Below are positions 2,875 to 51,740 of a stretch of DNA of 64,000 bases, piece after piece; the stretch's first letter is position 1; each line of letters starts with the position of its first letter. The stretch comes from Dipteronia dyeriana (lineage: Eukaryota > Streptophyta > Magnoliopsida > Sapindales > Sapindaceae). The position numbers and the translations under genes were made by a program. A model generated the notes under the pieces. It did not search any database. It saw nothing but the letters and a program-made list of their open reading frames with translations, and had not been told where the DNA came from. The stretch covers positions 11,044,413 to 11,108,412 of the forward strand of contig CM065301.1 in the NCBI GenBank assembly GCA_032871835.1. Reading direction: 5' to 3'.

Positions 2875-4056
2875 GATGACCAGTACTTATTCAAGTATTG
2901 TCCTGATCAAATTGTTCGATGGTGTATTCCAGGCAATGAGGTAAGTAGTGTCATTGAATTTTGTCATTCTGAAGCATGTGGTGGTCATTTTTCGTTAAAG
3001 AAAACGGCTGTAAAAATCTTGCAGTGTGGATTTTATTGGCCCACATTGTTTAAAGATGCACATGCATTATGTAAAACCTGTGAAAATTGTCAAAAGTTAG
3101 GATCCATTTCCAAGTGAAACATGATGCCTTTAAACCCCATTCTTTTCAATGAAATATTTGATTGTTAGGGTATTGATTTTGTGGGTCCATTTCCACCATC
3201 ATTTGGATTTTTGTACATTTTGGTTACCGTTGATTATGTGTCAAAATGGGTTGAGGCAATTCCTTGTTGAAATAATGATCACAAAGCAGTGATTAAGTTT
3301 TTGAAGGAAAATCTTTTGAGTCGATTTGGAATCCCTCGAGCCATTATCAGTGTTGGAGGCAAACACTTTTGTAACAAACCTTTTGAGTCTTTAATGAAGA
3401 AATATGGAGTCACACAAAAAATTGCCACACCATACCACCCTAAAACAAGTTGTCAAGTTGAGTTAGCAAATAGGGAGATAAAACATATCTTGCAAGAAAC
3501 GGTTAACCTTGATCGAAAAAATTGGCCTCTTAGACTAAATGATGCACTTTGGGCTTACCGCACTGCATTCAAAACATCTTTGGGTATGTCTCCTTATCGT
3601 TTAGTTTATGGAAAACCTTGCCACTTACTTGTTGAACTTGAGAAAAAGCATATTGGGCCATTAAATCTTTCAATTCTAACCTAAATGATGCTGTTGAATT
3701 GCGCAAGTTGTAAATAAATAAACTTGAAGAATTAAGAAATAATGCATATGAAAATGCAAAAATTCTTAAAGAAAAATCTAAAACCTTTCATGACAGACAA
3801 ATTTTAAGAAGATCATTTGAAGTTGGTCAAAAGGTTTTGCTTTATAATTCTCGACTTCATTTATTTTCTAGCAAATTGAAATCAAAATAGAGTGGTCCAT
3901 TTGTTGTGAAACACGTGTATCCATATGGTGCCAACGACATTGAAAATCCTAGGAATGGTAAAGTGTTTAAAGTAAATGGACAACGTGTGAAACCATTCTT
4001 AGAAAATACAGATTTTCAAAAAGACTCTGCAGTCCTTTTTGACCCTTGTTACAAAG
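2875..4056 (+). pseudogene. gypsy integrase (broken, one catalytic Asp replaced)
   Basis: The HHCC zinc domain is readable near 2965-3110 (CHSEACGGHFSLKKT, then CKTCENCQK). The catalytic core follows: VGPFPPSFG (about 3182), then ISVGGKHFC (about 3350), where the family has SDGG so the second catalytic Asp is Val, and [15 protein letters not shown] (about 3440) with the expected Glu. The downstream part ([15 protein letters not shown]) is strongly conserved. The C-terminal segment continues to VKPFLEN and DPCYKG near 4050, interrupted by stops at 3682 and 3889. This enzyme would insert element DNA into chromosomes. Confidence 0.8.
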
Positions 4057-4147
4057 GTGAGTAAACAAATCTTTTGCTTTTGGCTTTATTTGTGTTTGCA
4101 ATTATTAATTTTGTTTTTGTTCGCTTTTACGTTTTGAATTTTTGCAG
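4057..4147 (+). other. candidate spliceosomal intron between integrase and cargo region
   Basis: The end of the integrase frame runs into AAAG followed by GTGAGTAAAC, a near-ideal plant 5' splice site. Ninety-one bases later a T-rich tract ends in TTTTTGCAG followed by GATTAA, a strong 3' splice site. The interior is T-rich as plant introns are. I infer splicing from sequence only. A spliced subgenomic RNA would let a retrotransposon express genes downstream of pol. Confidence 0.45.
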
Positions 4148-4281
4148 GATTAATTTCTAGGTTCAGTTTTTGCTTGGTGTGTTTTGCTATATAACCCCAG
4201 TTAAGTGGCGGATAACGATACTCTTTGACAATTCAAGTCGGTTTAATTCAGTTTCCTAAATAACTGATCCCAAAACAAGGC

Positions 4282-4902
4282 ATGTATAAAATTTTCACAA
4301 ACCTGCGAAAACATTTTCCATCGTTGCCCCAAAATGCTCTGAAAAAGATTTACAAAGAACGTTCCAAACGATTACGTATACTGATGATAAACAATATTCC
4401 TGTTGAAATTCGCTGGTTTATAGAAGCTAAGGTACGTCTAGCAGGTAAGTCTGCTGATTCATTTATATCTTACATGCCTGGTTTTCGAAGAAGTAACCTT
4501 GCAAAAAAAAATGAAGAGCTAAGAAGTTAGGGGTTACTTGTCACAAATGTACACGTGTAACTTGCAACACACGTTGTCGTTCTTTAGGAATGGTGTCTAA
4601 TCGGGAAGATAAAATTTTATTCATTAGGCATGGTTTGTGTATGGAGTCATTGGATAATATCCTAACGACTCTTGATGCACATCCTAGTGGATATGTGTAA
4701 ATGGCAATTGACCGATTATGGCCACAATTTCAAAAATAGCATGCACAATATAGTCTTGGGAATTTGACTTTAAAAGACCATATTTGCCAATTTATAAGAA
4801 AATTGGATGGGATGCATATCCCCGACCCATAGAGGGCGTTGAAGCCGTTTCTGGACATAAAACCAGAGGAAGATGTGAACCACAATCACAACTACCAGTA
4901 AA
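4282..4902 (+). pseudogene. unrecognised accessory ORF downstream of integrase
   Basis: I do not recognise this. An 82-codon frame from the ATG at 4282 is basic and hydrophilic (MYKIFTNLRKHFPSLPQNAL). After a stop at 4528 a neighbouring frame stays protein-like to about 4900, with CHKCTRVTCNTRC (two close cysteine pairs), FIRHGLCMESLDNIL and DGMHIPD, broken by three more stops. The pattern suggests one ancestral ORF of roughly 200 codons with later damage. It sits between integrase and the LOG-type gene and may be element cargo. A possible donor site (GTAAATATCC at 4898) follows. It could be an env-like remnant, but I see no signal peptide or membrane segment. Confidence 0.35.
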
Positions 4903-5052
4903 TATCCTTTTGTTTTTATTATCTTTTTCCTTCCGCATTTAATGTCTTTTGTAATTATTGTTGTTTACTTTTGATTTTTGAACCATTTGGATCTAATATC
5001 ATTGACAAATACACCACTCTATAATATCATTTGTTTTCCTTTTTGCTTCAAG
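4898..5052 (+). other. candidate second intron or leader upstream of the LOG-type gene
   Basis: A GTAAATATCC donor-like site at 4898 begins a strongly T-rich stretch without protein-like frames that runs to about 5045, followed by possible AG acceptors (for example after GCTTCA at 5052). This could be an intron or simply an AT-rich spacer giving the LOG-type gene its own leader. Sequence evidence alone is weak. Confidence 0.25.
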
Positions 5053-5093: not shown

Positions 5094-5743
5094 ATGGCAT
5101 CACCTTCAACTAAACGATTCACAAACATTTGTGTGTTTGGTGGCACTAACTATGGAAAATACAGAGAGTTTGTTGAGGCCACAACTCATCTTGGTAAGGT
5201 TTTAGCTGAGCGAAAAATACACCTAGTGTATGAAGGAGGTAACTTAGGATTAATGGGGTATGTTTCACGAGCTGCATGAGACGGAGGTAGTCAAGTTCTG
5301 AGTATTGTCCCAAAACCTATGGCCGCAGTAGACATCATTAGAAAGACAAACGGCGAAGAGCTAGCTGTTTCAGGTATGCCTGAGAGATTGACTGCTATGT
5401 TGCATCATGCTGATGTGTTTATAGCTTTGCCAAGTGGTTTTGGAACCTTAGAAGAAATCTTTACAATGGCATCCTGGGCGCAACTGCACATCCATGAGAA
5501 ACCCATCAGTTTGTTGAATGTTAATAAATTTTATGATGGTTTGCTTTCATTTCTTGATCATGCTCAGAAAAATTATTACATTCCACCTTCAATCCGAAAA
5601 ATCTTTATCCTTCAAGTCCTCATGAGCTAATTGACCAGTTACAAGCTTTCAATTATAAGCCAGATCCTTCAACCTCCAAAATTGATTGGTCAATTGATGA
5701 AGAGAACAAGAAACACAAAATTGATCTGAATCTCAGTTTGTGA
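5094..5743 (+). pseudogene. LOG-like: LOG-type cytokinin riboside 5'-monophosphate phosphoribohydrolase carried by the retrotransposon (broken)
   Basis: LOG enzymes release active cytokinin bases from their ribotides in the cytosol and nucleus. The frame from ATG 5094 (MASPSTKRF) shows the family in order: NICVFGG (family CVFCGS), LGKVLAERKIHLVYEGG (family LVYGGG, one Gly is Glu), LGLMGYVSRA, IVPKPM, SGMPERLTAM with the conserved Arg, the signature PSGFGTLEE (family PGGxGTxxE, first Gly is Ser, Glu kept), WAQLHIHEKP and LLNVNKFYDGLL. TGA at 5277 falls where the family has a residue before DGG, and a frame change near 5600 precedes a tail (PHELIDQLQAF) ending at TGA 5743. No introns interrupt it, whereas plant LOG genes have several, so it looks RNA-derived. 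It lies after integrase and before the polypurine tract. Confidence 0.85.
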
Positions 5744-5894
5744 TTGTCCCATGGTTTTTATGCATTTTATTTTCCTTTATTTTGTATTTCTTTTGTTGTT
5801 TTGTAGGATTTTGTTGTCTTTCAAGTTGTTCAGGTGATATCTTCTAAACCTTAACTCTTTCTAAAGACATTAGGGACAATGTCTTGTTCTGGTT

Positions 5895-5908
5895 GGGGGG
5901 AGGGGATA
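5895..5908 (+). promoter_or_regulatory. polypurine tract of the Athila-like element
   Basis: The tract GGGGGGAGGGGATAG follows the block ATTAGGGACAATGTC, a wording often found just before the 3' LTR of plant gypsy elements. It would prime plus-strand DNA synthesis. TG at 5911 is the likely first LTR base. Confidence 0.65.
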
Positions 5909-6409
5909 GTTGATTCAATAACTTTTGATTTTCAAAAAAGAAAAAAAAAACTAACTTCTGACCATTTTTTTTTGTAAAGATGACCGAGTAAGGAGATCTT
6001 TTAGATACTTCTGAGACGCATATTTGTAGTTTTGATGCATTTTTTTCCTCTCTTCTGGCTATTCAAATTTATAAACTCTCCATTGTGATATCATTGATTA
6101 ATCTTTTGTTCATTAAGTCATCTTGAGAAATTTTTCAAACTATTCTAGACACATACACATTGACACGTGATTATGTGCAGTAAGTTGAGATTTTATGATA
6201 TTTAGTTCTGAAACATCAGTCAAGGGTAACAACCAAAGTTAGTGGTCTTGTTTAAAAATATATATAGTAATAATAATAATAATTTTGTGTGTTGTGACCA
6301 AAACTCTTTCTTAGTAACCGGGCCTCATGCCTCAGTAAGCATAGAGTGTTCACGTAAAACGGTGGAGTCTGGATAAGAATAAAGTGCAGTTCCATAGCCT
6401 CTTTAACTC

Positions 6410-6655
6410 GAGCAATTAAGTCTGAGGGGTGCTTTAACACCTAATGCCCTAAGACCAACTGGTTTGGGAGTCATTGACCCAAAGCTCGTTACACGGGTTA
6501 AAGAGAAAGCTTAAGGGAACTGTACTATTAAAAAAAAAACATTTGCAATCCGAGTAATTAAGCATGTAGGAGTGTTATAACACTTAATGCCCTAAAGCCA
6601 ACTGGTTTGGGAGTCATTGGCCAAAAGCTCGCTACATAGATTAAAGATGGAATGT
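6410..6655 (+). repeat. 142-bp direct repeat, two diverged copies, inside the LTR
   Basis: Two copies of a segment containing AATGCCCTAA, CCAACTGGTTTGGGAGTCAT and AAAGCTCG[CT]TACA start at about 6410 and 6552. They differ by scattered substitutions and are separated by an A-run. They lie in the U3 half of the LTR, upstream of the TATA box. Confidence 0.75.
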
Positions 6656-7379
6656 TTGTTTCCAATTTTGTTATATTAAAAAAAAAACCAAAAAATAAAA
6701 ATAAAAAAGGAGAAGAATAAATAAAACTACTGCCTAAGGAAGAAGCCCTGATGAGATTCCAGAATGAAAATGTTGCTTGATTTTAATTGAATCTCATAGT
6801 TATTGTGTTGATCTTTATTGAGCACAAGAAAGTTTGATTGATAACTCAATTGATGACTGGTTGTCATAAGGTGAGAAAAGAGGTATGGGAGAGTTTGTCT
6901 ATTTGGTAGTTTAGAGATTTGAATTTGAGTTTTTACTATTTTCGCTTTAATTGCTAGGGACTGGCAATAAAATGGTTGAGGGGTGTGATTAACACTGAAA
7001 AGTGTACGTTTACTAAGGGATAATATCATCATTTTACATTTCCAATATGATTAATTCCACAATGTAGACATAATTTCGTTCGCTCGCTTAAATAAATGTG
7101 TTGTGTAGTAATCAGTGTATTTTTCTTTGTATTTCTCTTTGTATTTCAGAGGTAATTCGATCAATTTAAAATTATGGAGAAGTCAGATGGCAAAACAAAT
7201 TTCGTTTTCAAGTTTAGAACGTCAAAAACCATAGAAAGACCACGAAGGATATTTTTATACTTTTGACTATCCACTGTTCACAGTTGACTTTCATTGTTCC
7301 TGATGAAGTGTCATATTCCTATTGGCCCAAACTATGAGTGCATCGTACATGCGGCTGCAGAGAATAATATTCTAGAAGT

Positions 7380-7490
7380 CGGTGCACTGTTCACTATTCA
7401 CTTTCACGGATGCGTTTACTGTTCACTGTCACTTTTCACTGCTCACTATTCACTTTCACGGATACGTTTACTGTTCACTGTTCACTATTT
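7380..7490 (+). repeat. short TTCACT-type tandem repeats upstream of the LTR TATA box
   Basis: The motif TTCACTTTCACGGATRCGTT occurs twice (about 7398 and 7449), with interspersed TTCACTGTTCACT units. The array ends about 70 bases before the TATA box, so it could be an enhancer-like U3 repeat. This is inference from position. Confidence 0.65.
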
Positions 7491-7561
7491 GCTGATCATG
7501 TGGCAATATCTGGACGCTCCATTATAAATTCATCCGATGTTCAATTTTCATCCGTATTTTG

Positions 7562-7568
7562 TATAAAT
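7562..7568 (+). promoter_or_regulatory. TATA box of the LTR promoter
   Basis: TATAAAT followed by AGGGGGTCTCTCCCCC is a clear TATA element in an otherwise AT-rich but TATAAA-poor U3. Transcription would begin about 30 bases downstream, around 7595. Confidence 0.6.
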
Positions 7569-7779
7569 AGGGGGTCTCTCCCCCTAATTTCGATATTCTG
7601 AATCCAAATATGATATTAGATTTGTGAATTTCTCTCTTTTGTTCTCAAATTCTCAGTTTAAATAAAATAACTATTTTCTAGTTAAATTATGTCTGGCTAA
7701 TTTTATATAGCTGTGGCCAAAGGTGATACTGTTGGTATGGAAAATATGATCCAATTTTGTTAAGTTTATTATTCTTATG

Positions 7780-8076
7780 TTTTCTCCCCTTTGATCTTTG
7801 TGGAGTTTTTGACTCACTGTAGACAGACATATATTGTCTAGCACATTAGGTACTTTTACCCATATCTATCAAAGAGTGGCTTCTCCCCTCTGATCTTTGT
7901 GGAGTTTTTGACTCACTGTAGACAGACAGATATTGTCTAGCACAATGAGTATTTTTACCCATATCTATCAGAGAGTGGTTTTTCCCCTCTAATCTTTGTG
8001 GAGTTTTGACTCACTGTAGACAGACAGATGTTGTCTAGCACAGTGAGTACTTTTACTCATATCTATCAGAGAGTGG
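7780..8076 (+). repeat. three tandem 99-bp repeats in the LTR
   Basis: Units begin near 7780, 7880 and 7979, each with CTTTGTGGAGTTTT, GACTCACTGTAGACAGACA, TTGTCTAGCACA and CATATCTATCA. They lie downstream of the TATA box, so they would be in the R/U5 part of element RNA. They differ by only a few bases each. Confidence 0.85.
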
Positions 8077-8377
8077 TCAGTGAAGTGGAATACCATCCTA
8101 TTAATCTGGACTAAATATTAATTATTGGATCATATTCAAATTACCAACAGTGGATCCCTTAGCCCCAGTTTTAATTTTAATTGATTTACATTTTATAACA
8201 AGCTTAGTAATTATCTAGATAATTAAGATTACAAAGACAAGTGAACTACCTCCCTGTGGTTCGACTCGGTCTTACCGGTTAGTTTATTACTATGACACTC
8301 TTATCCTTGGGAGTAGGAACACTTCTTTAGGACGTGTCACCTCTCAAGGAGGGCTAAGTTATATAATTTTTTAAAGT

Positions 8378-18354: not shown

Positions 18355-18980
18355 ATGAGTGGAAACGGTGGCAATGAGGGAGCTTCCAGCACTAGATCTC
18401 CACTCCTCACCTGATTGAATTATGCCTCTTGGAAAGGCAAGATAGAGTCGTACATATGCCAAATTCATGACAGAGCTTGGATGACAGTTGAAGATGGCTA
18501 CACTCCACCCATGATGACTCCCGCAGATGGAGGAGATGATGTACTCGAACCAAAGGCTCAGTGGAATGCATAAGAGTTTGAGGCTTCAAAGTGGAATAGG
18601 AAGGTAATGCATGCCATCCTATGTGCAATGGATGATAACTAATTCAAATTGGTTATGAACACTAGGATAGCTAAGGAGGCATGAGATATCTTAGAAGTTG
18701 CTCATGAAGGACTCCTACAAGGGCTCCTCAAGTTAACTTTCCTCAACCAAAAGCTCACAAAAGGAAGACACATATCATGCAAGCTCAACTAAGAAAGCAA
18801 TCAAGTCTTGCTCAGCAACAAAGAAGGAAATCTCCTTAACAACAAGAAAGACAACCACAAAGACATGGGAAGGCTCCAATGCATCATCAAGGATTTGGTA
18901 TAATTCCTAACTCTTTACCTACATGTCATTTTTGTGGTATTGATGGTCATATTAGACCAAATTGCTTTAGGTATATCAAA
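18355..18980 (+). pseudogene. copia gag (broken, internally shortened)
   Basis: ATG at 18355 starts MSGNGGNEGASS. A TGA at 18412 interrupts before the gag core YASWKGKIESYI and WMTVEDGY. Further stops lie at about 18570, 18640 and 18680. The middle of gag is largely missing, because soon after LEVAHEG comes a basic Q/N-rich stretch and then the zinc knuckle CHFCGIDGHIRPNC (about 18919-18966), close to CxxCx4Hx4C. Gag would form the virus-like particle. The deletion and stops make this copy inactive. Confidence 0.75.
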
Positions 18981-20780
18981 TTATGTAGGATTGAAAGCAT
19001 GATAGAAAAGAAAAAGGTTAGAGCCATGATGCATGATCCTAAGAAACCTAGAGCTATGATCCATGTCACTAGGAAAAGTGGAACACTTTTGCATGATCCT
19101 AGAACATTTAAAGCCCATGTACCATTGAAAACTAGGAAGAAATATACTGCACCTAGATGGATTAGAAAGGATGAACACCTTTGCCATGTTGCACAAAATC
19201 GCTTTGAAAGCTTATTATTGTGATTTTTGGTATTTGGATAGTGGGTGCTCTAGGCACATGGCTGGAAATAAGAGTTTCTTTGAGACTCTTGTGATGGAGG
19301 AGGGAGGAAATGTCACATTTGGTGATGGATCCAAAAAGAAAGTTAAAGAAAAGGGAACTATTTCCATTCCCGGATTACCCTCATTGTCCAATGCTTTGTA
19401 TGTTGATGGTCTAAAAGCCAATTTGATAAGCATTTCACATCTTAGTGATGATGGACTCTCCGTCTTGTTTAGAAAAAATGATTGTTCTATCCTATTGTCT
19501 AATGGACAAACCTTGTTAAAAGGTATGAGATCTAGTGACAATTGCTATTGTCTTGAGGCTAGAAGTGTGTCTTGCAATGTGTCCAAGGATGGACAAATAG
19601 AGTTGTGGCATGAAAGACTTGGCCACATGAACTTTAGGGATTTAAGAATCTTAGACAAGTTCAATGTTGTGCGAGGCCTTCCCAAGCTTGGGAAAAAGGT
19701 TAATGGTGTTTATGGACCTTGCCAACAAGAGAAGCAAACCAAAAGTATGCACAAAAAGGGCAAGTATATAATCACCAAAGAACCTCTAGAGCTTCTCCAC
19801 ATGAATCTTATGGGTCCTATGCAAACCGAGAGTTTAGGTGGAAAGAGATACATTTTTATATGTGTAGATGACTTCTTTAGGTACACATGGACATATTTCC
19901 TTAGAGAAAAATCTGAAACTTTTGATAAGTTCAAAATGCTTTGCTCCAAACTTCAAAATGAAATGAACTCCAAGATTAAAAGCATTAAGAGAATTAGGAG
20001 TGACCATGGAAAGGAATTTGAGAATGCCTATTTTGAAAACTTTTGTAATAGTCTAGGCATTTCTCATGAGTTTTCGGCTCGTTGGACACCTCAACAAAAT
20101 GGAGTTGTTGAGAGGAAGAATAGGGTTCTTTAAGAAATGGCCCGTGTGATGTTGCTTAGCAATAATGTCCGTAGGAATCTTTAGCCCGAAGCCGTTAATA
20201 CGGCATGCTACATAGGAAATAGAGTCTTCCTTAGGCCCCACACTAGGCAAACCTCCTATGAGTTATGGAAAGGTAGGAAGCCAAATGTTAGCTACTTCCA
20301 CACTTTGAGAAGCAAATGCTACATTTTGAATGACCGTGATCAACTTGGAAAATTTGATGCTAAGAGTGATAAGGATATCTTCATTGGCTATGTCTTGAAT
20401 AGTAGAGCCTATAGAGTTTTTAATCTAAGAACTAGGACCGTTATGGAATTATCTAATGTTGTCATTGATGATACTAGGCTCAAAACTAATGACCATGAGG
20501 AAGAGGTAGATTTAGTTGATGTTTCCCTTTTGGAGAAAGTAGTTGATATCTCTAATGTTGAAAAGGCTAATCTTGATGATGACATAGCACAACTTAGTGA
20601 TAGGATTCCTCTCTTGAACTCAAAAGAACCTGCTCCATGGGTTAGAAAACTTCATGACAAAGATGACATTATTGGTGAGGTTAGTGAGGGTGTCAGAACT
20701 AGGCATCAAATGACTAATCTAACTAGCTACACATGTTACACATCTCAAATAGAACCTAAGAAAATTGATGAAGCTTTCTA
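18981..20780 (+). pseudogene. copia protease and integrase (broken)
   Basis: The protease motif WYLDSGCSRHMAG lies at about 19219. GAG-pre-integrase follows (LWHERLGHMNFRDL, about 19600), with the second Cys pair degraded (VYGPCQQ, first Cys is Tyr). In the catalytic core the first Asp is Asn (LHMNLMGPMQ, about 19797), the second (RSDHGKEFEN, about 19995) and the Glu (NGVVERKNR, about 20099) remain. The long frame stops at TAA 20131. TAG near 20182 replaces a conserved Trp, and the frame reopens at 20305 with FIGYVLNSRAYRVFN. It would process Gag-Pol and insert element DNA. Confidence 0.85.
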
Positions 20781-22285
20781 AGATGAATTTTGGGTTCTTG
20801 CCATGCAAGAATAGCTTAACCAATTTGAAAGGAATGAGGTTTGGACTCTAGTTCCTAGGCCTAAGAACCTAAGAACACCAATGTGATAGGCACCAAGTGG
20901 GTATATAGGAACAAATCCGATGAGGATGGCAACATTGTGAGAAACAAGGCTAGGCTTGTAGCACAAGGATACTCTCAAATTGAAGGTATTGACTTTGATG
21001 AAACATTTGTTCCCGTTGCTAGGATTGAGTCCATTAGGCTTCTGTTATCCATTTCTTGTTTGCACAAGTTCACATTATATCAAATGGATGTTAAGAGTGC
21101 CTTTCTCAATGGTTTCTTGCAAGAGAAAGTATTTGTTGAACAACCCAAAGGATTTGTAGATCCTCACCACCCTAACCATGTCTATCATCTCAAGAAAGCT
21201 TTATATGGGTTGAAATAAGCACCAAGGGCTTGGTATGAGCGTCTCACCCAATATCTCTTAGACAATGGTTACACTAGGGGTAGTGTTGACAAGACTCTAT
21301 TCATCAAGAAAAACTAAGATGAGCTCTTTATAGCTCAAATCTATGTTGATGATATAGTATTTGGCTCCACAAATGACACCAAAGTCCAACAATTTATTGA
21401 TGTCATGTCTCATGAATTTGAGATGAGTCTTGTTGGTGAGCTAAGTTACTTTCTAGGTTTACAAATTAAGCAAATGGATGATGGGATTTTCATATCTCAA
21501 GCTAAGTATGACAAAAACCTAGTGAAGAAATTTGGCCTTGAAAGTGCCAAACATTGTGATACACCCATGAGTACCACTTTGAAGCTAAGCAAGGATGCTA
21601 GTGGTAAAAGTGTGGACCAAACTTTATATCGTGGCATGATTGGCAGCTTGCTCTATTTGACCGTAAGTAGGCCCGATATCTCCTTTAGTGTGGGTGTGTG
21701 TGCTAGGTACCAAGCGGATCCTACCGAGTCTCATCTCTCTTCTATTAAGAGAATCATTCGATATGTGAATGGGACATTCAACTATGGGATTTGGTACTCT
21801 TTTGACACTAATTCTAGTCTTGTAGGCTTTAGTGATGCAGATTGGGCAGGAAATTGTGATGATAGGAAAAGTACATCGGGCGGTTGCTTTTTCCTTGGGA
21901 ACAACCTTGTCTCTTGGTTTTGCAAGAAGCAAAATTCATTTCCTTGTCCACGGCTGAAGCCGAATACATTGCTGCTGGGAATCGATGCACACCACTCCTT
22001 TGGATGAAGCAAATGCTAGTCTACTATGGATTCAATCAAGGTACTCTTACTCTCTTTTGTGATAACATGAGTGCAATTAATATTTCAAAGAATCCGATTC
22101 AATATTCTAGGACTAAGCATATTGACATTCGTCATCATTTTATTAGAGAACTAGTTGAGAGCAAATGCATTGTACTTGAGCATGTAGGTACAAATGACCA
22201 ACTAGCGGATCTATTTACTAAACCCTTAGATGCTACTAGATTCAAGACTCTTAGTAGATCTATTGAGATTTGTTTAATGGAGTGA
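20781..22285 (+). pseudogene. copia reverse transcriptase-RNase H (broken)
   Basis: RT blocks in order: [14 protein letters not shown] (about 20886), [25 protein letters not shown] (about 21087), LYGLK followed by TAA at 21216, IYVDDIVFG (about 21341, catalytic YVDD intact) and SYFLGLQI. RNase H follows with GFSDADWAGN (about 21826), KSTSGGCFFLG and, after a frame change near 21930, TAEAEYIAAG, CDNMSAINISKNP and TKHIDIRHHFIRE. TGA at 22283-22285 is the normal end. Several stops (20781, 20812, 21216, 21316) disable it. Confidence 0.87.
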
Positions 22286-23512: not shown

Positions 23513-25089
23513 TGAAAAGTCCTCATTTGTTGATTGACTTATTTCGTGAACAACCACATTGTTGGGGTTCATGTAAGGGTAGCTTAGGCTCTCAAGACCT
23601 CAAGAGGAGAAACACCAAAGGTAAAATTCTTGTGCTTACTTATTTTGAAGAGATAGTTGCACACACTCACATATTCATGGATAACTCTTGATTTTATATG
23701 TTGAGTGTTTTCTTGTGTGTATTTTAGTTTGAATGACTCTTGTTGACCTGTTTGCATCTTGCTATGAAAGTTGTATGTCATGCTAGACATTAAAATAGGA
23801 TGTAATTTCATCACTCTTGAACTTATTGTTTTGTGCATTTGAGTGTTAAAAAAATAGGCATTGCGCTGGTGGTGCGCTACTCGACCAGCGCAACTTTCAC
23901 AGTGGACTGTCGCTAGTGTTGCGCCACTGAGTTGCGCTGCTGCACCCGCGTATAGTTGAGAAATGTGGGCGTGCGCTGATTGTGCGCTACTCGTCCAGCG
24001 CACCTTACTAGGGCAAACTTCCCAGAGAATCTACGCTTGTGTTGCGCTACTGGATGCGCCACTAGTCCTGCGCCTATTTTAAAAAAAGGTTGTGCGCTGG
24101 TGCTGCGCTACTCGACCAGCGCACGTCACCAGTGCACACAGAGGAAGTTGAAACGTTTTTTCCAAAACGACCTCACTTTGTTTGGATCTTATATATATAT
24201 AACTCAATGCCTTAAGGTCGTGCATAAGTTCAGAATATCACATTTCTTCCTTATAACACATTTCAAAGGAAAAACACTTCCAAGAACTCATTTTTAATCA
24301 CTCAAAGCATTTCCATGAGCATTAAATCTTCATATTGCATCATCTAAGTTCATCTAAAATGCATCTATGGATAGGGTTGCTTCATCACATCTTGTTTGGT
24401 AAGCTCTTCACTATCTTCTTACAAGTTAAGTGCTTTTGCTTGCTAAACCATCTCTTTAATTAATTGTATTATCCTAGAATATTTTCTTGATACAAATTAG
24501 AGATTGTTGTGATGCCATGATTAAGTGTTGTATTGTGATAGCTTCATAAGATTTTTTGATCTATGTTTAGCTAAGTTATTTGAACATGTCATTTAGCATT
24601 TGATATCTAGGATTGCATTCATTGTCATCTCATTATCCTAGATAAGCATATAGGGTTTCCTAGCATTGTTTGTTCATTGAATATCATCATATATTCACTT
24701 AGGACATTTTATCTCTTCATTGAGAAGTAAGACTTGTGTTACTTCCGGGAGTAGGTAGCTTAAAGCACAAGCATGATGAACTAGGTTCACTTATACCGGG
24801 ATTAGGTAGTGGTGGAGGATTAAACCGGGATTAGGTTGTAATTCCTTTATCATTAATGGATTTGAGGTTCTAGTGTGGCGCGCTCATCAGCCCGTGGTTT
24901 TTCCCTTTTGGAGGGTTTCCACGTATATCTCAAGTGTCTTTAATATTTCTGTATTTTTAAACTTGTGATTGCATTGTAATTAGCTAGGGGCATTTTCGTC
25001 AACTTGACTTAACAAAAATTGGGTAAAAGTTAATTTAAATCTATTCACCCACGTCTAGATTAATATTACAAACCATATTATTTGTTTCA
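23513..25089 (+). repeat. 3' LTR of the Sirevirus-like element
   Basis: Starts TGAAAAGTCC and ends TTTGTTTCA. It matches the 5' LTR along its length with scattered changes, including the palindromic boxes at 23861-24140 and the TATA run at 24189-24202. Confidence 0.88.
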
Positions 25090-25480
25090 TAACCTAATAT
25101 CAAACGAAACACTAGTTATATTACTGAATAAAGTGGGGACCCGATACATGAAAGTTTGGTCTTGTCACTCGACGTTTTAATTGATATCATTAAATTTCAA
25201 GATGATTGAGCGAGGTTTATTTACATAATCGTAACTTAATATCAATTGAAACACTAGTTATATATAGGTTCAAGTAAGTTCAATAAATGCGAAGTAAAGA
25301 ATTAATGAAACGCTTTAAAAACTTAACTCGACCTATATTTTAACTTCTTATAAATGAGCTTGTCTTCCCCCATTGCAACACCATCGAGAAAGGAAAGGGA
25401 TCGATCACTAACGAACACCTTTATGTAAGGAGATTAAATATATAACAAACTAATCTTTTACGTTAAGGAGATTAAATATA
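25090..25480 (+). repeat. rejoined array unit 2 with a local partial duplication
   Basis: After the copia target site the array resumes with CTAATATCAAACGAAACACT, then jumps back at about 25115 to GAATAAAGTGGGGACCCG, sequence already present before the insertion at about 16539. So roughly 145 bases of the unit are present twice around the insertion. The usual order then continues to the gene. Confidence 0.7.
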
Positions 25481-25489
25481 TAACAAACT

Positions 25490-25845
25490 CTTGCTTAATT
25501 ACCTTTTTCTTGTTGAGCGAGATAGCCATTCTTTCACCCGTGCTTGCTGCTCGCGACCTGGGAGAAGTTGTTGCTGTTCCCCCGTTACCAAATAGCACTC
25601 ACGATTTCTTAGAACAATGTGTGGCAAAACTGAAACCAAGGTGTGGTAATCAGCTCGCTGGAAGCCTGTTCGGAACTGGAACTGTCTCACCTGATAGTTG
25701 TCATAACCTTCCTACGCTCGGACGACCTTGCTATGACGAGTTTTTGGCTGTAACTCTTCCTTACCACAAAGTTGATGCAGCCAAAGTTAAAGCTAAGAGT
25801 GAAAAGGTTTGGAACGATTGTGCAAAAATCAAGCCAACTGCTTGA
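25490..25845 (+). pseudogene. ECA1/prolamin-like secreted protein, array copy 2 (start codon region replaced)
   Basis: The stretch that should hold ATG and the next codons is replaced by a second copy of the leader phrase AAGGAGATTAAATATATAAC, so no ATG remains in frame before the signal peptide. From the hydrophobic segment (about 25492) the frame is open to TGA 25845 and ends KIKPTA. The Cys pair is broken: SPDSCHN replaces SPDCCHN, leaving five of six Cys. A non-ATG start is possible in principle, but I judge this copy non-functional. It is near-identical to copy 5 (36808-37143), its partner in the 11.3 kb duplication. Confidence 0.8.
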
Positions 25846-27449
25846 GCATTATAAATTGTTTTATTTAATAAACATTGTGATGCAAAATCACAGAGAGCTA
25901 TAAAGGATTATCTTCATCATTATGCATTGTTATGTGCACGGAAAACTATTCACATAAAACTAATACTTATTTTTACTCGTACGCCAACCGCGTTTAAATA
26001 AGTTCTATGTCATACGTTTGAATTTAACGGTCCTCTTACCATGCATAGTGTTACCAATATAAGTGAATAAAATATTTTCAAAAAGTAACATGGAAGTAGC
26101 AGTAAATTTTAATAAAACGACTGCTACGAATGATGAATAAACCGTCATAGTTATATACGTAAAGTTTAATCGTGTTCGTAAGTAGAAAAAAAAACAGTAC
26201 TATGAACACTACTCATTTTATTTTACTGTACGAAGATATCGATAATTTAAAAATTCAGCAACATAAAAATCAATACTCATTATTTCTTATATGTAACCTT
26301 TAAAATATTGAGAAATCAAAACTAATATTGGTTATTTCTTTTAGGTAAGGTATATTTATATTCTGGAGGGATTTTACGTTTCGCTGTCAATCGTTTTTTA
26401 TATGACAGAATAAAGTTTATAACGATCGAAATTTCATATATTTGATTCGTAGAAGTAGAACGTTTGATAAAGTTGTTTCATGAAGTTAAGAAAGTTTTTA
26501 TTGTCTCGGGAATATTATTTTCTAAACAAAACTCGTAAAATTTACAGTGTCATGGAATCGTTCTCGTATAAATGAAGTACATCATGTTTATGAATTAAAT
26601 TACTTTGTTAGAACAAATAAGTGAAAGTAACAAATTTTTTAATACATAAAAAAGGGAATTCTTCTTACAAACGAAATTTACGTATTTTGTCGAGACAACG
26701 TTTCTCAAACTAATTAGTTTTCAAAATAAAAAAAAAACGATGTCCCCTTACGAATACTTTTTCTAGATAATTACGAATGAATCGATCACGACATAAGCAT
26801 ATTGGCGAACACAGTAACAATTTCATATCTTAAGCGACTTATTATTTTAAGACAAATAATTTATAAATTCTACTTTGTCTTTTTTAGTTATTTGGCCAAA
26901 AAAATATTAAATACGAAAGAGTATAATATCGAATACATGGAAAATAAAGAGGAAAAACAACATTGAAAAAAGAAAAAAACCAAACTATTTTTGTGTAAAT
27001 TGTGCATTTTGCTACAGCCTTTATATTTTCCGAAGGTAGCTTTATGTTTTGATTTATATCGACAACTAATCGTGTAACATATCAGAATGTTACCACCACG
27101 TATATTACTGAATAAAGTGGGGAACCGGTTCCTGAAAGTTTGGTCTTGTCACTGGACGTTTTAATTGATATCATTAAATTTCAAGATGATTGAGCGAGGT
27201 TTTTTTCACATAATCGTAACTTAATATCAATCGAAACACTAGTTATATATCGGTTCAAGTAAGTTCAATAAATGTGAAGTAAAGAATTAATGAAACGCTT
27301 TAAAAACTTAACTCGACCTGTATTTTAACTTCTTATAAATGAGCTTGTCATCCCCTATTGCAACACCATTGAGAGAGGAAAGGGATCGATCACTAACGAA
27401 CACCTTTAATTAAGGAGATAAAATATATAACAGACTAATCTTTTACGTT

Positions 27450-27827
27450 ATGACAGGTATCGGTAGCTACTCTTGCTTAATTTCCTTTTTCTTGTTGAGC
27501 GAGATAGCCCTTCCTTCGCCCGTGCTTACTGCTCGCGACCTGGGGGAAGTTGTTGCTCTTCCCCCGTTACCAAAGAGCACTCATGATTTCTAGGAGCAAT
27601 GTGCGGCAAAACTAAAATCGGGGTGTGGTAATCAGCTCGCAGGAAGCCTGTTCGGAACTGGAATGGTCTCACCTGATTGTTGTCATAACCTTTCTACGTT
27701 CGGACGACCTTGCTATGACGAGTTTTTGGCTGTAACTCTTCCTTACCACAAAGTTGATGCAGCCAAAGTTAAAGCTAAGAGTGAAAAGGTTTGGAACGAT
27801 TGTGCGAAAATCAGGCCTTCTGCTTGA
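27450..27827 (+). pseudogene. ECA1/prolamin-like secreted protein, array copy 3 (nonsense)
   Basis: ATG at 27450 starts MTGIGSYSCLISFFLL, a good signal peptide with likely cleavage near TARDLG. A TAG codon (about 27591) stands in HDF*EQC, just before the first cysteine, in place of a Leu codon. After it the frame is open through all six Cys to TGA at 27827, so a single change disables an otherwise complete 125-residue gene. TATA box at 27334; AATAAA at about 27849. The gypsy element starts 74 bases after the stop codon, in the 3' untranslated area. Confidence 0.82.
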
Positions 27828-27900
27828 GCATTATAAATTGTTTTATTTAATAAACACTGTGATGCAAAATCACAGAGAGCTATAAAGGTTTATCTTCATC

Positions 27901-28295
27901 TGACGTAGCGGAAGCTAAATAATCTCGAATCCACGAGAGAGTTGTGTTCAAAGAAAAATTTTATTGATGAATGAATAATAATAATTCCTACAACCTCCCT
28001 GACTCTTTGCTTAAATAGAAAATAAATAGAATCAACTAATATCAAACAAGTTTGATTTATTTCCTAATCCTAAACGGACTGAAAAACTAATATCAAACAG
28101 GTTTGATTTATTTCCTAATCCTAAACGGACTGAAAAAAATCTAATATCAAACAAGTTTGATTTATTTCCTATTTTCAAAACTAACAACTAATGTCTTGCA
28201 AAACAAGAAAATTCAACTAACAAGTAAACTAACTAACAATATCAACTTCCTCATGACTGATTCCCACGGCTACAACTTCCTCATGTCCTACATCA
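27901..28295 (-). repeat. 3' LTR of gypsy copy A
   Basis: Runs TGACGTAGCG to CCTACATCA on the + strand. It contains three near-repeats of about 50 bases, each with ATCAAAC[AG][AG]GTTTGAT, itself a near palindrome, plus TTATTTCCTAATCC (28040-28165). The last 22 codons of pol read into this LTR. Confidence 0.9.
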
Positions 28296-29827
28296 GTCTC
28301 CTCCTCTTGAAAACAAACTCGTCCTGAGTCATCCGAATACAAGGGCACATCCTCATGGTACTCTGAAAGATCGGCTACATTGAACGTATTGAAGATGTTC
28401 CAATTATCTGGCAGCTGTAGGATATAGGCATTGTCATTAATTTTCTTGGCGACCCTGAAAGGTCCATACTTTCGTTTATGTAGCTTAGTTCGGATTCCAG
28501 GAAACCAATTTTTTCGTAAATAGGCCATCACCAAATCTCCCTCTGCGAACTCTTTCTTGCCCCGATGTTGGTCTGCAGCAGTTTTGTAAGCAGAATTAGC
28601 AGCCTCCAAGCTAGCTTGCACTTCCGAATGTAGTTGTTGAATCCGTTCAGCTAGATTTTCTCCAGCTGTACTGACTTTCGGTTGGATTGGTAATGTGACC
28701 AGGTCCATCGCGTGTTTTGGCTGCTGAGTATATACAACTTTAAAAGGAGTTTTATTCGTCGAGCGATTGGTCATACTGTTGTATGCAAATTCTGCTTGAG
28801 CCAGGTCAAGATCCCATCGTTTTGGCTTTTCTCTGCTGATACATCGTAACATATTACCCAAAGTACGGTTTACCATCTCAGTTTGGCCGTCCGTTTGTGG
28901 ATGGAAAGCACTGTTGAACTGCAATTGGGTATCAAATTTCTTCCACAAGGTCCTCCAAAAATGGCTTACGAATTTGACGTCACAATCTGATGTGATGGTC
29001 TTTAGAACTCCATGTAAATGTACCACTTCGCGAAAAAACAAGTCGGCATTATTGCTTGCATCTGCAGTCTTTTTACAGGCGAAGAAATGCGCCATTTTTG
29101 AAAACCGGTCGACCACCACCATGATGGAAGCTTTTTCCCTCTGAGTTTGTGGTAATCCAAGCACAAAGTCCATCGACAAATCTTCCCAAATTGTCTTCGG
29201 AACGGGCAGGGGAGTATATAAACCGGTATTTTGGGACTGTCCTTTCGATTCCTGACACACTCGACAGTGTTGGACGATTTTCCCCAAGTCTCTCTTCAGC
29301 TGCGTCCAGTAATAACGATCGGTGATCAACGTGATTGTCTTGTCACGTCCCAAGTGACCGCCCAATCCACCTCCTTGAAGTTCCTGCATAATCTTCTCCC
29401 GCAATGACCCTTTTGGAATGCATAATTTATTGGATTTAAATAAATATCCATCGTGTATCAGAAAGTCACCTACATTTTGGTGAGTGCTGCACTTGTCCCA
29501 CACTTCCTTGAAGTCCTCATCAGTGACATATTGGTCTTTCAAAGTCTCAAAACCAGTGATCTCAGCTTCTACCGTCACCAGCAGTGTGGTCCGCCTACTC
29601 AATGCGTCAGCGACTTTGTTCATCAGTCCAGCTTTGTGTTTTAGGGAAAAGGTAAATTTTTGCATGTATGTGATCCATTGGGCATGCATGTTGTTCATGT
29701 GGTGTTGGTTGTTGATGAATTTTAGAGCTTGATGATCACCGTACAACACGAATTCCTTTTGGATCAAGTAATGCTGCCAATGCATGAGAGCTCGGTAGAC
29801 ATCATAATTTTTTTTTTCGTAGGTCAT
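28229..29827 (-). pseudogene. gypsy RNase H end and integrase, copy A
   Basis: A 532-codon open frame, the longest in the window. It begins [12 protein letters not shown] in mid RNase H. The TAG just upstream replaces a conserved Trp (SDTRQR*MTYEKK), so it is not a natural start. RNase H ends at KVADALSRR. The integrase zinc domain has [15 protein letters not shown], where the first His is Gln, and CRVCQ. The core has [15 protein letters not shown] and [12 protein letters not shown], so D, D and E are present. The C-terminal part ends with GPFRVAKKI and [10 protein letters not shown]. It overlaps the 3' LTR by 67 bases. Confidence 0.85.
28296..28309 (-). promoter_or_regulatory. polypurine tract of gypsy copy A
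   Basis: On the - strand CAAGAGGAGGAGAC directly precedes the 3' LTR. It also encodes the QEEET part of the polyprotein tail, so coding and priming functions overlap. Confidence 0.75.
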
Positions 29828-30783
29828 CTATCGCTGTCTCGTGTCACTTAATTTTTCACTAAAGAATTCCACCGGTCTACCTTCTTGAGATAAAATGGCC
29901 CCAATTCCCTTTCCTGAAGCATCACAATCGACTTCGAATAACTTGTCAAAATCTGGTAATGCGAGGACAGGAGTTGTGCTTAGTTTCTCTTTCAGTAGCG
30001 CGAAGCTTGTTTCTTGCTCTTCTGCCCATCGAAAACAGCCTTTTTTTGTGTATTCAGTCAATGGTGCTACCAAGCTGCTGAAATTTCGAATGAACCTTCG
30101 GTAGAACGTTGCTAACCCATGGAAGCTTCGCACGTCTGTCACCATTGATGGGGTCGGCCATTCACGAATTACCTTGACCTTTGCCTCATCCACTTGGACC
30201 CCATTCTTTCCCACGATAAACCCCAAAAAAACCAACTGGTCTTGCAAGAAATTACACTTATTCTTGTTCACGTACAGGTGATTTTTCTGCAGTACTATTA
30301 ACACTTCTCTCAGGTGTCTCAAGTGTGTCTCTTCATCTGGGCTGTAAATAAGAATATCGTCGAAGTAAACAACGACAAATTTGTATGAAAAAGGTCTCAG
30401 TACCTGATTCATGAGTCTCATAAAGTGCTTGGAGCGTTGGAGAGACCGAACGGCATCACAGACCATTCGTACAACCCTTCACGCGTTTTAAACGCGGTTT
30501 TCCACTCGTCTCCCGGCCTAATCCGAATCTGATGGTACCCGCTTCGCAGGTCAATTTTGGAGAACACTTTTGCTCCTCTCAATTGGTTGATCATGTATTG
30601 GATTGTGGGTATCGGGTGACGGTAAAGGATTGTAATTTTATTGATTGCCCGGCTGTCAATATACATTCGTCAAGTTCCATCTTTCTTGGGTACTAGTAAT
30701 GCAGGCACTGCACAAAGGCTCTTGCTCTCCTGGATGTATCCCTTCTGTAACAAATCATCATCTTGACTTTGTAGTATCTTGTG
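29828..30783 (-). pseudogene. gypsy reverse transcriptase, copy A (frameshifted)
   Basis: Blocks: [12 protein letters not shown] (about 30660), [28 protein letters not shown] (about 30425), then a one-frame shift inside 30418-30466, after which [24 protein letters not shown] (YFDD intact, about 30360), [12 protein letters not shown] and [12 protein letters not shown] follow. The RNase H core [16 protein letters not shown] is at about 29930. In-frame stops also lie near 30668 and 30783. Enzyme of element replication in living relatives; broken here and identically in copy B. Confidence 0.85.
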
Positions 30784-31530
30784 TTATTGTGGACTCATCT
30801 TATAGTGTGCTAGGTTTGGTAGACTCGCTCCTGGAATCAGATCAATTTGATGTTGTATTTCTCGTATTGGTGGTAATCCCAATGGTAGTTCTTTTGGTGT
30901 AAGTTCAGAAAACTCGGTTACCAAAGGAAGAACCTTTTCGGGTATTGTTTCCTCTTCCATGTCATCCTCTTGAGTTAACAACGCACAAGCTTGGCATTCC
31001 TCGGTCACATGAGTTGTTGCCATGGCTAGGAAATTTTCTCCTTCCTCTAGCCGGGTCTCTGTCTTCAAAGTAGGTGGTTTTAATATGATTTTTTTCCCTT
31101 TCCACCATAATTCGTAGGTATTGGCTCTTCTTTTGAAAATGATGTCCACATCGTATTGCCATGGTCTTCCTAACAAAATCTGGCAAGCATCCAGAACCAC
31201 TACATCACACACAATCTCATCTTTGTAATTCTTACCAATTGATAGCGGTACTTTGCACACTTCATCGACTACATATGCAGCGCCTTCCACCTTTCGAATC
31301 CAACGCAAGCCATAGGGTTGTGGGTGTTTCGCAGTGGACAGTTTCACCTTTCGAACCAGCTCTTTGGACACCAAGTTCTTTGAACTAACTGTGTCTATCA
31401 CTACCTTCGCTATCACCCCATTGATAAGGGCATTGGTTCGGAAGACTTGATGGCGAGTCGAAAGTTCTGGTCCCCTTTTTGATGTCAAGAAAACCCTTTG
31501 AACGATACAATTTATTTTTTTTGTCTTCAC
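30784..31530 (-). pseudogene. gypsy protease region, copy A
   Basis: A 248-codon frame contains VIDTVSSKNLVS, corresponding to the retropepsin D-[ST]-G block but with Val in place of Gly. It continues with LLGRPWQYDVD, the usual second half, and an acidic linker before QHQIDLIPGASLPN, which leads into RT. Between this frame and gag a lysine-rich stretch has a stop near 31617. The Gly-to-Val change would be expected to abolish protease activity. Confidence 0.75.
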
Positions 31531-31683
31531 CTTTTTTGCTTCTAGATTTTCTGCCGAGCTGTGCTGTGTAGATTTCTTTAATAATAATTTTTTTTTTGTC
31601 TGACTTTCACACGGTTAATGCATCACCATTCCAACGAAGTCGTCATCCTCACCCTCCTCAATTCCATCGACCACCTCTGTTTC

Positions 31684-32838
31684 CTAACCATTGTCCCCTT
31701 CTTCTTCACAGTCACCTTCAACAAAATTGACAGCAGGTCTTTGTGGGCATTGATTCGAACGGTGTCCAGGTTGGTGACATCTGTAGCATAGTGAGGGCAT
31801 TGGTTTAGCATAAGGATTCCATGCTTGTTGTGGAGCAGATCTCCTTGGTCGACCATCAGTAGTCACGATCTCAGTGGCTGGTTCAGTTATTGGCGTTACT
31901 TTGCTTGGACCTGCTTGGAACTGCTGGTTTGTGAACTTGGTTAGCACAAGAGGTGCTAGGATGGGCTCTTCAGCCTTTCGTGCCAAATCGAAAGCTTGTC
32001 CGAGCGTGAATGTATTAAGCATCTTCATTTGGTCTTGTATTTTCCGTTTCAAACCTCCTCTAAACCTTGCGATTTGCATGTTTTCATTGTCTGGCAGCAA
32101 GTTCCGCGAATTTAGTCGAATGAACTCATCGATGTATTCTTCCACAGTCCGATTCCCCTGTTTGCAGTTCTGTAACTGTACATATAAACGCTGCTCATAA
32201 TCAAGAGGTAGGAACTTACCCATGAATTTACTTTTCATCTTCTCTCACGTTGCAATCGGAGGTTTTCTGTCCAGCACTCGCTTGTTTTTCAGGTACTTCC
32301 AATATGCTGCAGCCGATCCTTTCAATTTATTGGCCACCACTTTGAGTTTTCGGTCTTCAGAACAGTCCATCACCCCAAATCCTGTCTCAACCTCGTCAAT
32401 CCAAGAGAAAAATTCATCCACATTCTGTGTTCCTTTGAAGATTGGCATCTCCACATTAAGTTTATAATCTCGGTCACCTTGGGTTCTCCTCGGAGACTGA
32501 TTTTCAGATTCCATCAATTGAGAATTTGGGGACAAAAACATGGATAACGATTGTGTGTTTTAGACTTGCGGTGTGTTTTCAGGATTACGTGTCAAGGACG
32601 TCGGGCCACGAGTGATCTCATCTACCCCTCTACGTCACTGGTTGTCTACCCTGTTGCCATTAGGGAACAACACCTCTAATCTTTGAAGAACCTTCTCAAG
32701 CTGAGCCTGCAGTAACGGAACCCCATCGATTAGTGGACGAATGTAATTGATGGTGGCAGTAACAACCCCGGTTGCTATTGCCCTTATTCGCTGATCGTCG
32801 TCAGTCAAACAATTACTCCCAATATCGTCGCGCGCCAT
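31684..32838 (-). pseudogene. gypsy gag, copy A (three in-frame stops)
   Basis: Likely natural start at MARDDIGSN (32838), just inside the primer site. The same frame continues through a TGA (about 32635), a second stop (about 32560) and a third at about 32245. The core has PIFKGTQNVDEFFSWIDEVE, AAAYWKYLKNKR, MGKFLPLDYEQRLYVQLQNC and TVEEYIDEF, then the zinc knuckle CYRCHQPGHRSNQC near 31775-31815. All pieces share one reading frame, so only nonsense changes, not indels, break gag. It would form the particle shell. Confidence 0.8.
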
Positions 32839-32860
32839 CAGAAATTTTGCTAAGGGCGTA

Positions 32861-32873
32861 GGCTCTGATACCA
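32861..32873 (-). promoter_or_regulatory. primer-binding site of gypsy copy A
   Basis: On the - strand TGGTATCAGAGCC lies two bases inside the 5' LTR and matches initiator Met tRNA in complement. Confidence 0.9.
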
Positions 32874-32875
32874 CT

Positions 32876-33270
32876 TGACGTAGCAGAAGCTAAATAATCT
32901 CGAATCCAAGAGAGAGTAGTGTTCAAAGAACAATTTTATTGATGAATGAATAATAATAATTCCTACAACCTCCCTGACTCTTTGCTTAAATAGAAAATAA
33001 ATAGAATCAACTAATATCAAGCAAGTTTGATTTATTTCCTAATCCTAAACGGACTGAAAAACTAATATCAAACAGGTTTGATTTATTTCCTAATCCTAAA
33101 CGGACTGAAAAAAAACTAATATCAAACAAGTTTGATTTATTTCCTATTTTCAAAACTAACAACTAATGTCTTGCAAAACAAGAAAATTCAACTAACAAGT
33201 AAACTAACTAACAATATCAACTTCCTCATAACTGATTCCCACGGCTGCAACTTCCTCATGTCCTACATCA
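32876..33270 (-). repeat. 5' LTR of gypsy copy A
   Basis: 395 bases, TG to CA on both strands, differing from the 3' LTR at eight positions (for example CAGAAGC for CGGAAGC, AGTAGTG for AGTTGTG). It is followed by the target duplication TCATC. Confidence 0.9.
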
Positions 33271-34795
33271 TCATCATTATGCATTGTTATGTGTACGGAA
33301 AACTATTCACGTAAAACTAATACTTATTTTTACTCGTACATCAGCCGCGTTTAAATAAGTTCTCTGTCATACGTTAGAATTTGACAGTCCTCTTACCATG
33401 CATAATGTTACCAATACAAGTGAATAAAATATTTTTGAAAAACAACTTGGAAATAGCAGTAAAATTTAATAAAACAACTGCTACGAATGATGAATAAACC
33501 GTCATAATTATATACATAAAGTTTAATCGTGTTCGTAAGTAGAAAAAAAAAATAGTACTATGAACACTATTCTTTTTATTTTACGGTACGAAGATATCGA
33601 TAATTTAAAGATTCAACAACATAAAAATCAATACTCATTATTTCCTGTATGTAACCTTCAAAATATTGATAAATCAAAACTAATATTGCTTATTACTTTA
33701 TGTAAGGTATATTTATATTCTGGAGGGATTTTACGTTTCGTTGTCAATCGTTTTTTATATGACAGAATAAAGTTTCTAACGATCGAAATTTCGTATATTT
33801 GATTTGTAGAAATATAAAGTTTGATAAAGTTGTTTCATGAAGTTAAGAAAGTTTTTATTGTCTCGGGAATATTATTTTCTAAACAAAACTCGTAAAATTT
33901 ACAGTGTCATGGAATCGTTCTGGTATAAATGACGTAAAGCATGTTTATGAATTAAATTACTTTGTTAGAACAAATAAGTGAAAGTAACAACTTTTTTAAT
34001 ACATAAAAAAGGGAATTCTTCTTACAAACGAAATTTAAGAATTTTGTCTAGACAACGTTTATCAAAATAATTAGTTTTCAAAATTAAAAAAAGGGTGTCC
34101 CCTTGCGAATACTTTTACTAGATAATTACGAATGAATCGATCACGACATAAACATATTAGCGAACACAGTAACAACTTCATATCTTAAACGACATATTAT
34201 TTTAAGTCAGATAATTTATAAATTCTACTTTTTCTTTTTTAGTTATTTTGCCAAAAAAAATATTAAATACGAAAGAGTATAATATCGAATATTAGGACAA
34301 TAAAGAGGAAAAACAAAAATGAAAAAAGAAAAAACAAAACTATTTTATCTAAATTGTGCATTATGCTACAGCCTTTATATTTTTCGAAGGTAGCTTTTCG
34401 TTTTGATTTATATCGACAAATAATCGTGTAACATATCAGAATGTTACCACTACGTATATTACTGAATAAAGTGGGGACCCGGTTCCTGAAAGTTTGGTCT
34501 TGTCACCAGACGTTTTAATTGATAATATTAAATTTATTTAGCGAGGTTTAGTTATATAATCGTAAATTAATATCAATCGAAACACTAGTTATATATCGGT
34601 TCAAGTATGTTCAATAAATGGGAAGTAAAGAATTAATGAAACGCTTTAAAAACTTAACTTGACCTATATTTTAACCTTTTATTAATTAGCTTGTCATACC
34701 CCATTGCAACACCATCGAGAAAGGAATGGGATCGATCACTAACAAACACCTTTTTGTAAGGAGACAAAATATATAACAGACTAATCTTTTACGTT

Positions 34796-42828: not shown

Positions 42829-42981
42829 CTTTTTTGCTTCTAGATTTTCTGCCGAGCTGTGCTGTGTAGATTTCTTTAATAATAATTTTTTTTTTGTCTG
42901 ACTTTCACACGGTTAATGCATCACCATTCCAACGAAGTCGTCATCCTCACCCTCCTCAATTCCATCGACCACCTCTGTTTC

Positions 42982-44136: not shown

Positions 44137-44173
44137 CAGAAATTTTGCTAAGGGCGTAGGCTCTGATACCACT

Positions 44174-51734: not shown

Positions 51735-51740
51735 TAATTC

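Follow-up and report, generated by a model that had tools for sequence, protein, structure and literature searches.

A LOG-family gene carried within an Athila-like Ty3/gypsy retrotransposon family of Dipteronia dyeriana, with relatives in several plant families

Introduction

Dipteronia dyeriana, the source of the 64,000-nucleotide stretch of contig CM065301.1 analysed here (the window), belongs to the same plant order as Citrus. A LOG-family domain, listed as YgdH, has been located in gypsy elements from two species of Citrus and, once the paper's filter was switched off, from Populus (Alvarado-Marchena et al. 2022, PMC9289625), in a paper which in turn cites Steinbauerova et al. 2011, and so LOG-bearing elements have been described, a point that the earlier note on this DNA had left open. 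As in Dipteronia, the LOG-family domain there lies inside a plant gypsy element; the available portions of that paper list the YgdH domain and say nothing of a tail, a splice layout, a non-autonomous subfamily or a single origin. The present case differs in its host, with 671 candidate LOG matches in the genome. The same available portions describe Phalaenopsis gypsy elements that carry an AlkB-like m6A demethylase of tested activity, again an extra host-type enzyme encoded as an additional gypsy frame like the Dipteronia LOG, whereas enzyme and hosts differ and the activity of the Dipteronia protein is putative.

A tail or splice layout of an element LOG was not found in the literature searched, which consists of titles and opening abstracts with few subscription journals. 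In the accessible text of each source, a review on extra frames of LTR elements in plants (PMC7264820) has no mention of ‘cytokinin’ or of ‘lysine decarboxylase’, a Retand survey (PMC11963269) has no LOG terms, and a Populus LOG list (PMC3866579) has no term in ‘transpos’. Relative to these sources, as far as their accessible text goes, the multi-family clade of element LOGs and its basic and LxLxL tail seem new, and the LOG domain in gypsy elements was already known.

As for the protein itself, the plant LOG1/LOG3/LOG8 enzymes (structures 2a33 and 1ydh) have the same fold, catalytic loop and length as the element LOG, which differs from them in its intronless frame, its own clade and its extra basic and LxLxL tail; in our alignment A1, 13 host LOG proteins are 40-45% identical to the element LOG. 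The accessible part of PMC9956375 gives LxLxL or DLNx(x)P, mostly C-terminal, as the EAR motif, and the effector HaRxL21 is described in the accessible part of PMC7446885 as binding TOPLESS via a C-terminal EAR motif. Effectors of this kind resemble the element LOG in having a C-terminal LxLxL on a parasite-like plant protein; here the motif belongs to an enzyme that a genomic element encodes, and TOPLESS binding is only putative. Ten other LxLxL effectors tested in the same study (PMC7446885) did not bind TOPLESS, and so LxLxL by itself is no proof of such binding.

The host element and LOG frame in the window

The host element lies on the plus strand and is broken throughout its coding part. 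A C-terminal part of gag with the protease region (1-1294, read from open reading frames, with the domains seen on related copies) is followed by a reverse transcriptase/RNase H region (1403-2874, PF00078 on 1706-1942) and an integrase region (2875-4062), in which a weak PF00665 match on 3271-3684 (24 bits) falls short of the 32.6 that Pfam requires. One or more further decayed frames lie between pol and LOG, within a predicted intron (4264-4866), and a Pfam scan of the pieces tried from there gave no match. A CHKC-type stretch is present in them, with a similar one in the copy L026 (4341-4595; L numbers designate stretches fetched from the genome). Athila elements elsewhere have an env-like frame between integrase and 3' LTR, and the frames at 4264-4866 could be a relic of one.

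Pairing with the 5' LTR, which lies outside the window (2836-4159 of L009, preceded by CCTAT), places the 3' LTR, TG...CA, at 6986-8339, with CCTCT after it; the two putative halves of the target duplication agree at four of five bases. Between LOG and this LTR a non-coding stretch (5744-6985) terminates in the purine run GGTTGAGGGG, the polypurine tract, immediately before the LTR, and the placing of both features near 5885 in the earlier note does not hold. LTRs of the form TG...CA, a 5-bp target duplication, a primer binding site (PBS) and the order gag-PR-RT-RH-INT identify the element as Ty3/gypsy, and its gag and pol pieces match PF03732, PF00078, PF17917, PF17921 and PF00665 in Pfam, with PF13650 just below its cut-off. 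PF03078 (ATHILA ORF-1) is absent among the Pfam matches of the gag and pol pieces; this domain is linked to the Athila lineage and is no defining test of it. The Athila name itself comes from a likeness of the pol text together with the label in the earlier note, and the element is therefore termed Athila-like.

The LOG frame (cytokinin riboside 5'-monophosphate phosphoribohydrolase-like; ORF reading and Pfam) is a decayed copy at 5094-5743 on the plus strand, opening with an ATG at 5094 and closing with a stop codon that ends at 5743. Translation and Pfam reproduced the frame with the single nonsense codon and single frame change first ascribed to it, the former being an in-frame TGA at 5277-5279 and the latter falling in the last quarter. 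The piece 5280-5630 matches Lysine_decarbox (PF03641, E 4.8e-28, 98 bits) and the piece 5094-5279 matches SLOG (PF18306, E 1.2e-4, under the curated cut-off), and the frame is 93% identical to the intact copy L015 with four gap positions. Its catalytic-loop signature PSGFGTLEE (5430-5456; translation and copy alignment) is PGGFGTLEE in most copies, so that with PSG instead of PGG the catalytic loop is changed as well. The C-terminal tail KKHKIDLNLSL (5708-5740) combines a basic patch with an LxLxL, EAR-like motif. Since the LOG of the window is broken, functional claims refer to its intact relatives. Element sequence was found on both flanks of LOG, as had been claimed, with reverse transcriptase and the weak integrase match upstream and the 3' LTR downstream.

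Elsewhere in the window a repeat of about 9.4 kb (25000-34500 and 36300-45800, shift 11,298 bases, 99-100% identity) includes one gene of Prolamin_like type (PF05617) as well as a gypsy element, and is either a recent duplication or an assembly artefact. Further Prolamin_like frames at 34785-35123 (PF05617, E 1.9e-7) and 46090-46428 (alike by eye) make this a small family, presumably of egg-cell-type secreted proteins. A copia-type retroelement occupies 18840-22285 on the plus strand (PF07727 on 20865-21215), and a second copia and another gypsy element were recognised by eye on the minus strand at 50658-54462 and 58791-61709.

LOG as cargo of a repeated element family

A profile search of the 914-Mb genome gave 671 candidate LOG matches, 150 of which were scored, the window copy lying outside these 150. 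At least 150 LOG domains besides that of the window are present, as all 150 pass the family cut-off in one frame over at least 128 of 131 positions, some with stops; the matches spread over nine chromosome-size contigs. Twenty stretches of about 10 kb were sampled: 19 contain LOG and one lies upstream of the window, and because the 19 come mostly from the top of the score list they are biased to well-kept LOGs.

Element 3' sequence follows LOG in all 19 LOG-bearing stretches, the adjacent 3' region being at least 93% covered in 18 and covered by about one third in L011; LTR sequence is also present in every one (66-100% covered), and integrase is full or near-full in 16 and lost or cut in L012, L014 and L021. 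The order gag-RT-INT-spacer-LOG-LTR is common to them, though some copies have lost parts of it. Five insertions (L015, L018, L020, L022 and L012) that hold LOG between their LTRs have perfect 5-bp target duplications at their flanks. A nine-base AC-rich repeat is shared by the flanks of L019, no target duplication was seen at the flanks of L027, and the start of the 5' LTR of L025 was not found. LOG belongs to an element family and takes the same place in independent insertions, five of them with target duplications, which upholds the original view that it is not a chance neighbour.

Insertion ages from six LTR pairs are about 0.6-4.5 My, and that of the window copy is 3.3-6.1 My, on assumed rates of 7e-9 to 1.3e-8 per site and year; the dates for L027 and L019 are weak, their LTR alignments having 647 and 626 gap columns. 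The stretches L023 (C4:34315300) and L024 (C4:34409500), 94 kb apart, share their LOG protein and a neighbouring LTR, the latter in opposite orientation, and represent a segmental duplication. Relatives of the element were not found in scans of a viral collection for plant-element contigs.

Most of the reverse transcriptase is missing in 11 of the 19 stretches. The breakpoints of this deletion (window 1164 and 2707, 11-base overlap) are identical in nine of the ten copies tested and within five bases in L019, which most likely reflects one event, multiplied afterwards. All 11 RT-less stretches have a stop-free LOG frame, two of them without an ATG, the stretches having been chosen on their LOG score. 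L012 goes further, in that it consists of LTR, PBS, leader, spacer, LOG (with one stop) and LTR, gag-pol being gone. This shows that RT-less, LOG-bearing copies were mobilised; LOG as the cause is not implied, the copies having been selected by LOG. An integrase lesion shared by the RT-less type was also considered and dropped, as the sole shared indel, seen in 13 of 16, appears to mark the window copy as the one that differs.

The LOG protein and its relatives in other plants

The intact copy L010 matches PF03641 with 130.5 bits (cut-off 27) and TIGR00730 with 161 bits (cut-off 96). With the NCBIfam equivalog NF058542 it reaches 109 bits, under the cut-off of 300, in a library that names bacterial and archaeal proteins, so that a plant-type LOG may fall short. 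Foldseek matches AtLOG3 (2a33) at E 4.1e-23 and rmsd 1.2, with 46-49% identity to 2a33 and 1ydh. The loop PGG.GT[LM]EE is found in 32 of 33 clusters formed at 80%, and the conserved arginine, R98, has a column identity of 0.949 among 39 sequences. On these matches the predicted proteins of intact copies clearly keep the LOG fold and catalytic loop.

For the tail, 151 proteins of full length (205-245 aa) that lie outside the LOG1/3 set were counted against 104 of host LOG1/3 type, a narrow set whose full-length members form two 80% clusters only; the comparison omits LOG5/LOG7, and the one LOG8-type protein in the tree is without its tail. LxLxL within the last ten residues is found in 132 of the 151 and none of the 104, and the basic patch in 148 and none. 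There being many close relatives among the 151, counting by 80% clusters gives LxLxL in 26 of 33. The motif is not present in 19 of the proteins, Xanthoceras included, and the 132 that have it satisfy the EAR pattern. The tail leucines have column identities of 0.89, 0.94 and 0.94, against 0.29 and 0.25 at the x positions and a mean of 0.36 in the preceding linker, and LNLxL is present in 32 of 36 Dipteronia copies. In the predicted structure the tail is of low confidence, as expected of a free peptide. Most relatives, going by these predicted proteins, end in a basic patch and a C-terminal LxLxL.

Identity to a Dipteronia copy is 57-64% for the 29 relatives aligned in A1, and the named sources of such relatives are Xanthoceras, Populus, Diplodiscus, Reevesia, Melia and Paulownia (one 41-kb contig). 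A 58-sequence tree was rooted on the P. aeruginosa LOG and held 44 element-type and 13 plant LOG1/3/8-type sequences, LOG5/LOG7-type being left out; in it the element-type LOGs form one clade (bootstrap 99) and the plant LOG1/3/8-type another (100). The element-type clade has a support of 0.917 in a 236-sequence tree. It spans Sapindaceae, Meliaceae, Malvaceae and Salicaceae and stands apart from the sampled host LOG1/3/8. In the Xanthoceras model P0002, LOG is joined to a stretch that by eye resembles the pol text of this element, the Diplodiscus LOG models have 18 different chromosome numbers in their names, and the Reevesia models are likewise dispersed over many. Location in elements outside Dipteronia is taken from PMC9289625 (Citrus, and Populus with the filter off, in its available portions), from P0002 and from the Diplodiscus and Reevesia model names rather than from their DNA. 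The LOG type is evidently old, the predicted proteins forming one clade in several plant families at about 217 aa with the loop kept.

Splice layout and possible roles of LOG

An intron of 996 bases is predicted by motif at 4057-5052, from a donor AAAG/GTGAGT at the pol end to an acceptor CTTCAAG/CAC (5052/5053) 41 bases upstream of the LOG ATG, and once it is spliced out, as predicted, LOG and pol of the window would read in one frame. The donor proposed at 4056/4057 is a real motif, identical in six other copies. The Dipteronia annotated model P0003, which starts LINIQKKN upstream of the ATG, would fit the predicted Pol-LOG joint. Another donor, GAG/GTAAGT, lies in the leader right behind the PBS (TGGCGCCGCTGCCGGGGA in L015 and L020) in six of eight copies; it is lost in the window copy and is GTATGT in L022, and the search pattern was unmatched in L025. 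The L015 leader, 783 bases long, contains no other good donor, and 0.08 are expected in shuffles of it. Depending on the donor used, splicing would give a message for LOG by itself or one in which Pol and LOG are fused in frame. A TATA-like CTATAAATA roughly 80 bases upstream of the LOG ATG, present by eye in most copies and lost in the window copy, was set aside, as its ten-base bin (0.967) is within the range of its neighbours and is evidence neither way.

On balance it seems probable, if only by a little, that LOG is a resident of an Athila-like Ty3/gypsy lineage, expressed from a spliced message and acting through cytokinin release and a TOPLESS-directed tail as an effector pair. The message would be made by splicing from the donor after the primer binding site, or from the pol-end donor as a Pol-LOG fusion, to one common acceptor. 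In cells that transcribe the element the enzyme would convert cytokinin riboside monophosphate to the free hormone, and the tail may carry part of the LOG protein to the nucleus and to TOPLESS-type co-repressors. Enzyme and tail together could then favour dividing, permissive cells, and new copies would reach the next generation. We infer both the hormone action and the TOPLESS binding from motifs, and they are putative, as is the gain in germ-line cells through cytokinin that the earlier note proposed. The fullest form of this proposal is tentative and rather doubtful as a whole, namely that an old retrotransposon lineage encodes a two-part effector, a working cytokinin enzyme with a nuclear signal and a TOPLESS-recruiting EAR, made from an env-like spliced message or as a Pol-LOG fusion, which raises the hormone and bends host transcription.

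LOG might instead be kept for nucleotide or particle chemistry, a Pol-LOG protein in the particle trimming a nucleotide monophosphate or serving as a structural piece. All 13 stretches of the 19 in which both splice motifs were matched have the Pol-LOG joint in frame, as such a role would have it, and these count as one observation given the one-in-three chance of phase and the shared descent of the copies. Solved bacterial LOGs bind AMP according to their structure titles, and the retained loop and fold also suit this role. However, the basic patch and LxLxL tail have no obvious task in a particle, and the leader donor would give LOG alone, and we consider the particle role fairly improbable.

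Whether LOG was a host message captured by chance and copied without benefit to the element turns on selection. Among 36 aligned Dipteronia copies the three codon positions show equal divergence, with mean differences per site of 0.058, 0.066 and 0.062 at positions 1-3, and internal branches make up 6% of the tree. Purifying selection among the copies of this genome, proposed in the earlier note as support for a kept gene, was looked for and did not appear: private changes have an omega of 1.00, as expected of a neutral passenger. By allele sharing, omega is 0.71 for alleles in two copies, 1.62 in 3-4 copies and 0.61 in five or more, and it is not significantly lower for shared than for private alleles (p 0.13 for at least two copies, 0.37 for at least three), only the class of five or more giving p 0.047. 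A hint of fewer replacements among shared non-C-to-T alleles left no clear signal once the mutation spectrum was considered. That purifying selection is not clear within the genome follows from nearly all differences postdating a recent burst. Also in keeping with a passenger, half of the sampled copies are broken despite the choice by high score, a complete ATG-to-stop LOG frame being present at 22 of 44 distinct places, the window included. Against it, a gene of about 217 aa with loop and tail persists in relatives about 40% divergent from several plant families, a depth over which both would be expected to be lost, and in the tail the leucines stay constant where the free positions are variable. 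A neutral passenger is for these reasons distinctly unlikely. The long keeping of LOG in the element family, as first suggested, stands as regards the old type across plant families with its loop kept, and fails as regards the copies here, which evolve neutrally.

That a host LOG gene or retrogene merely stands beside a retrotransposon, or that the junction is misassembled, is next to impossible: nothing beyond the single locus speaks for it, LOG matches lie on nine contigs with junctions repeated across the fetched stretches, and the target duplications outside the LTRs of five insertions refute it.

Implications

The Populus ‘LOGL10’ entries P0020, P0052 and P0117, annotated as ordinary LOGs, have the element-type tail and group within the element-type clade when 236 sequences are compared in a tree. 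The element type accounts for some Populus ‘LOGL10’ entries and for many of the LOG predictions in Diplodiscus, Reevesia and Dipteronia, and with such LOGs annotated as LOG genes, counts of the LOG gene family would be inflated. Gene capture by plant retrotransposons is usually viewed as accident. In the resident-effector reading favoured here, LOG seems to have remained with a single element lineage across several plant families and to have a tail that is absent from the sampled normal LOGs, and if the protein is active, the element would be a genomic parasite that steers the development of its host.
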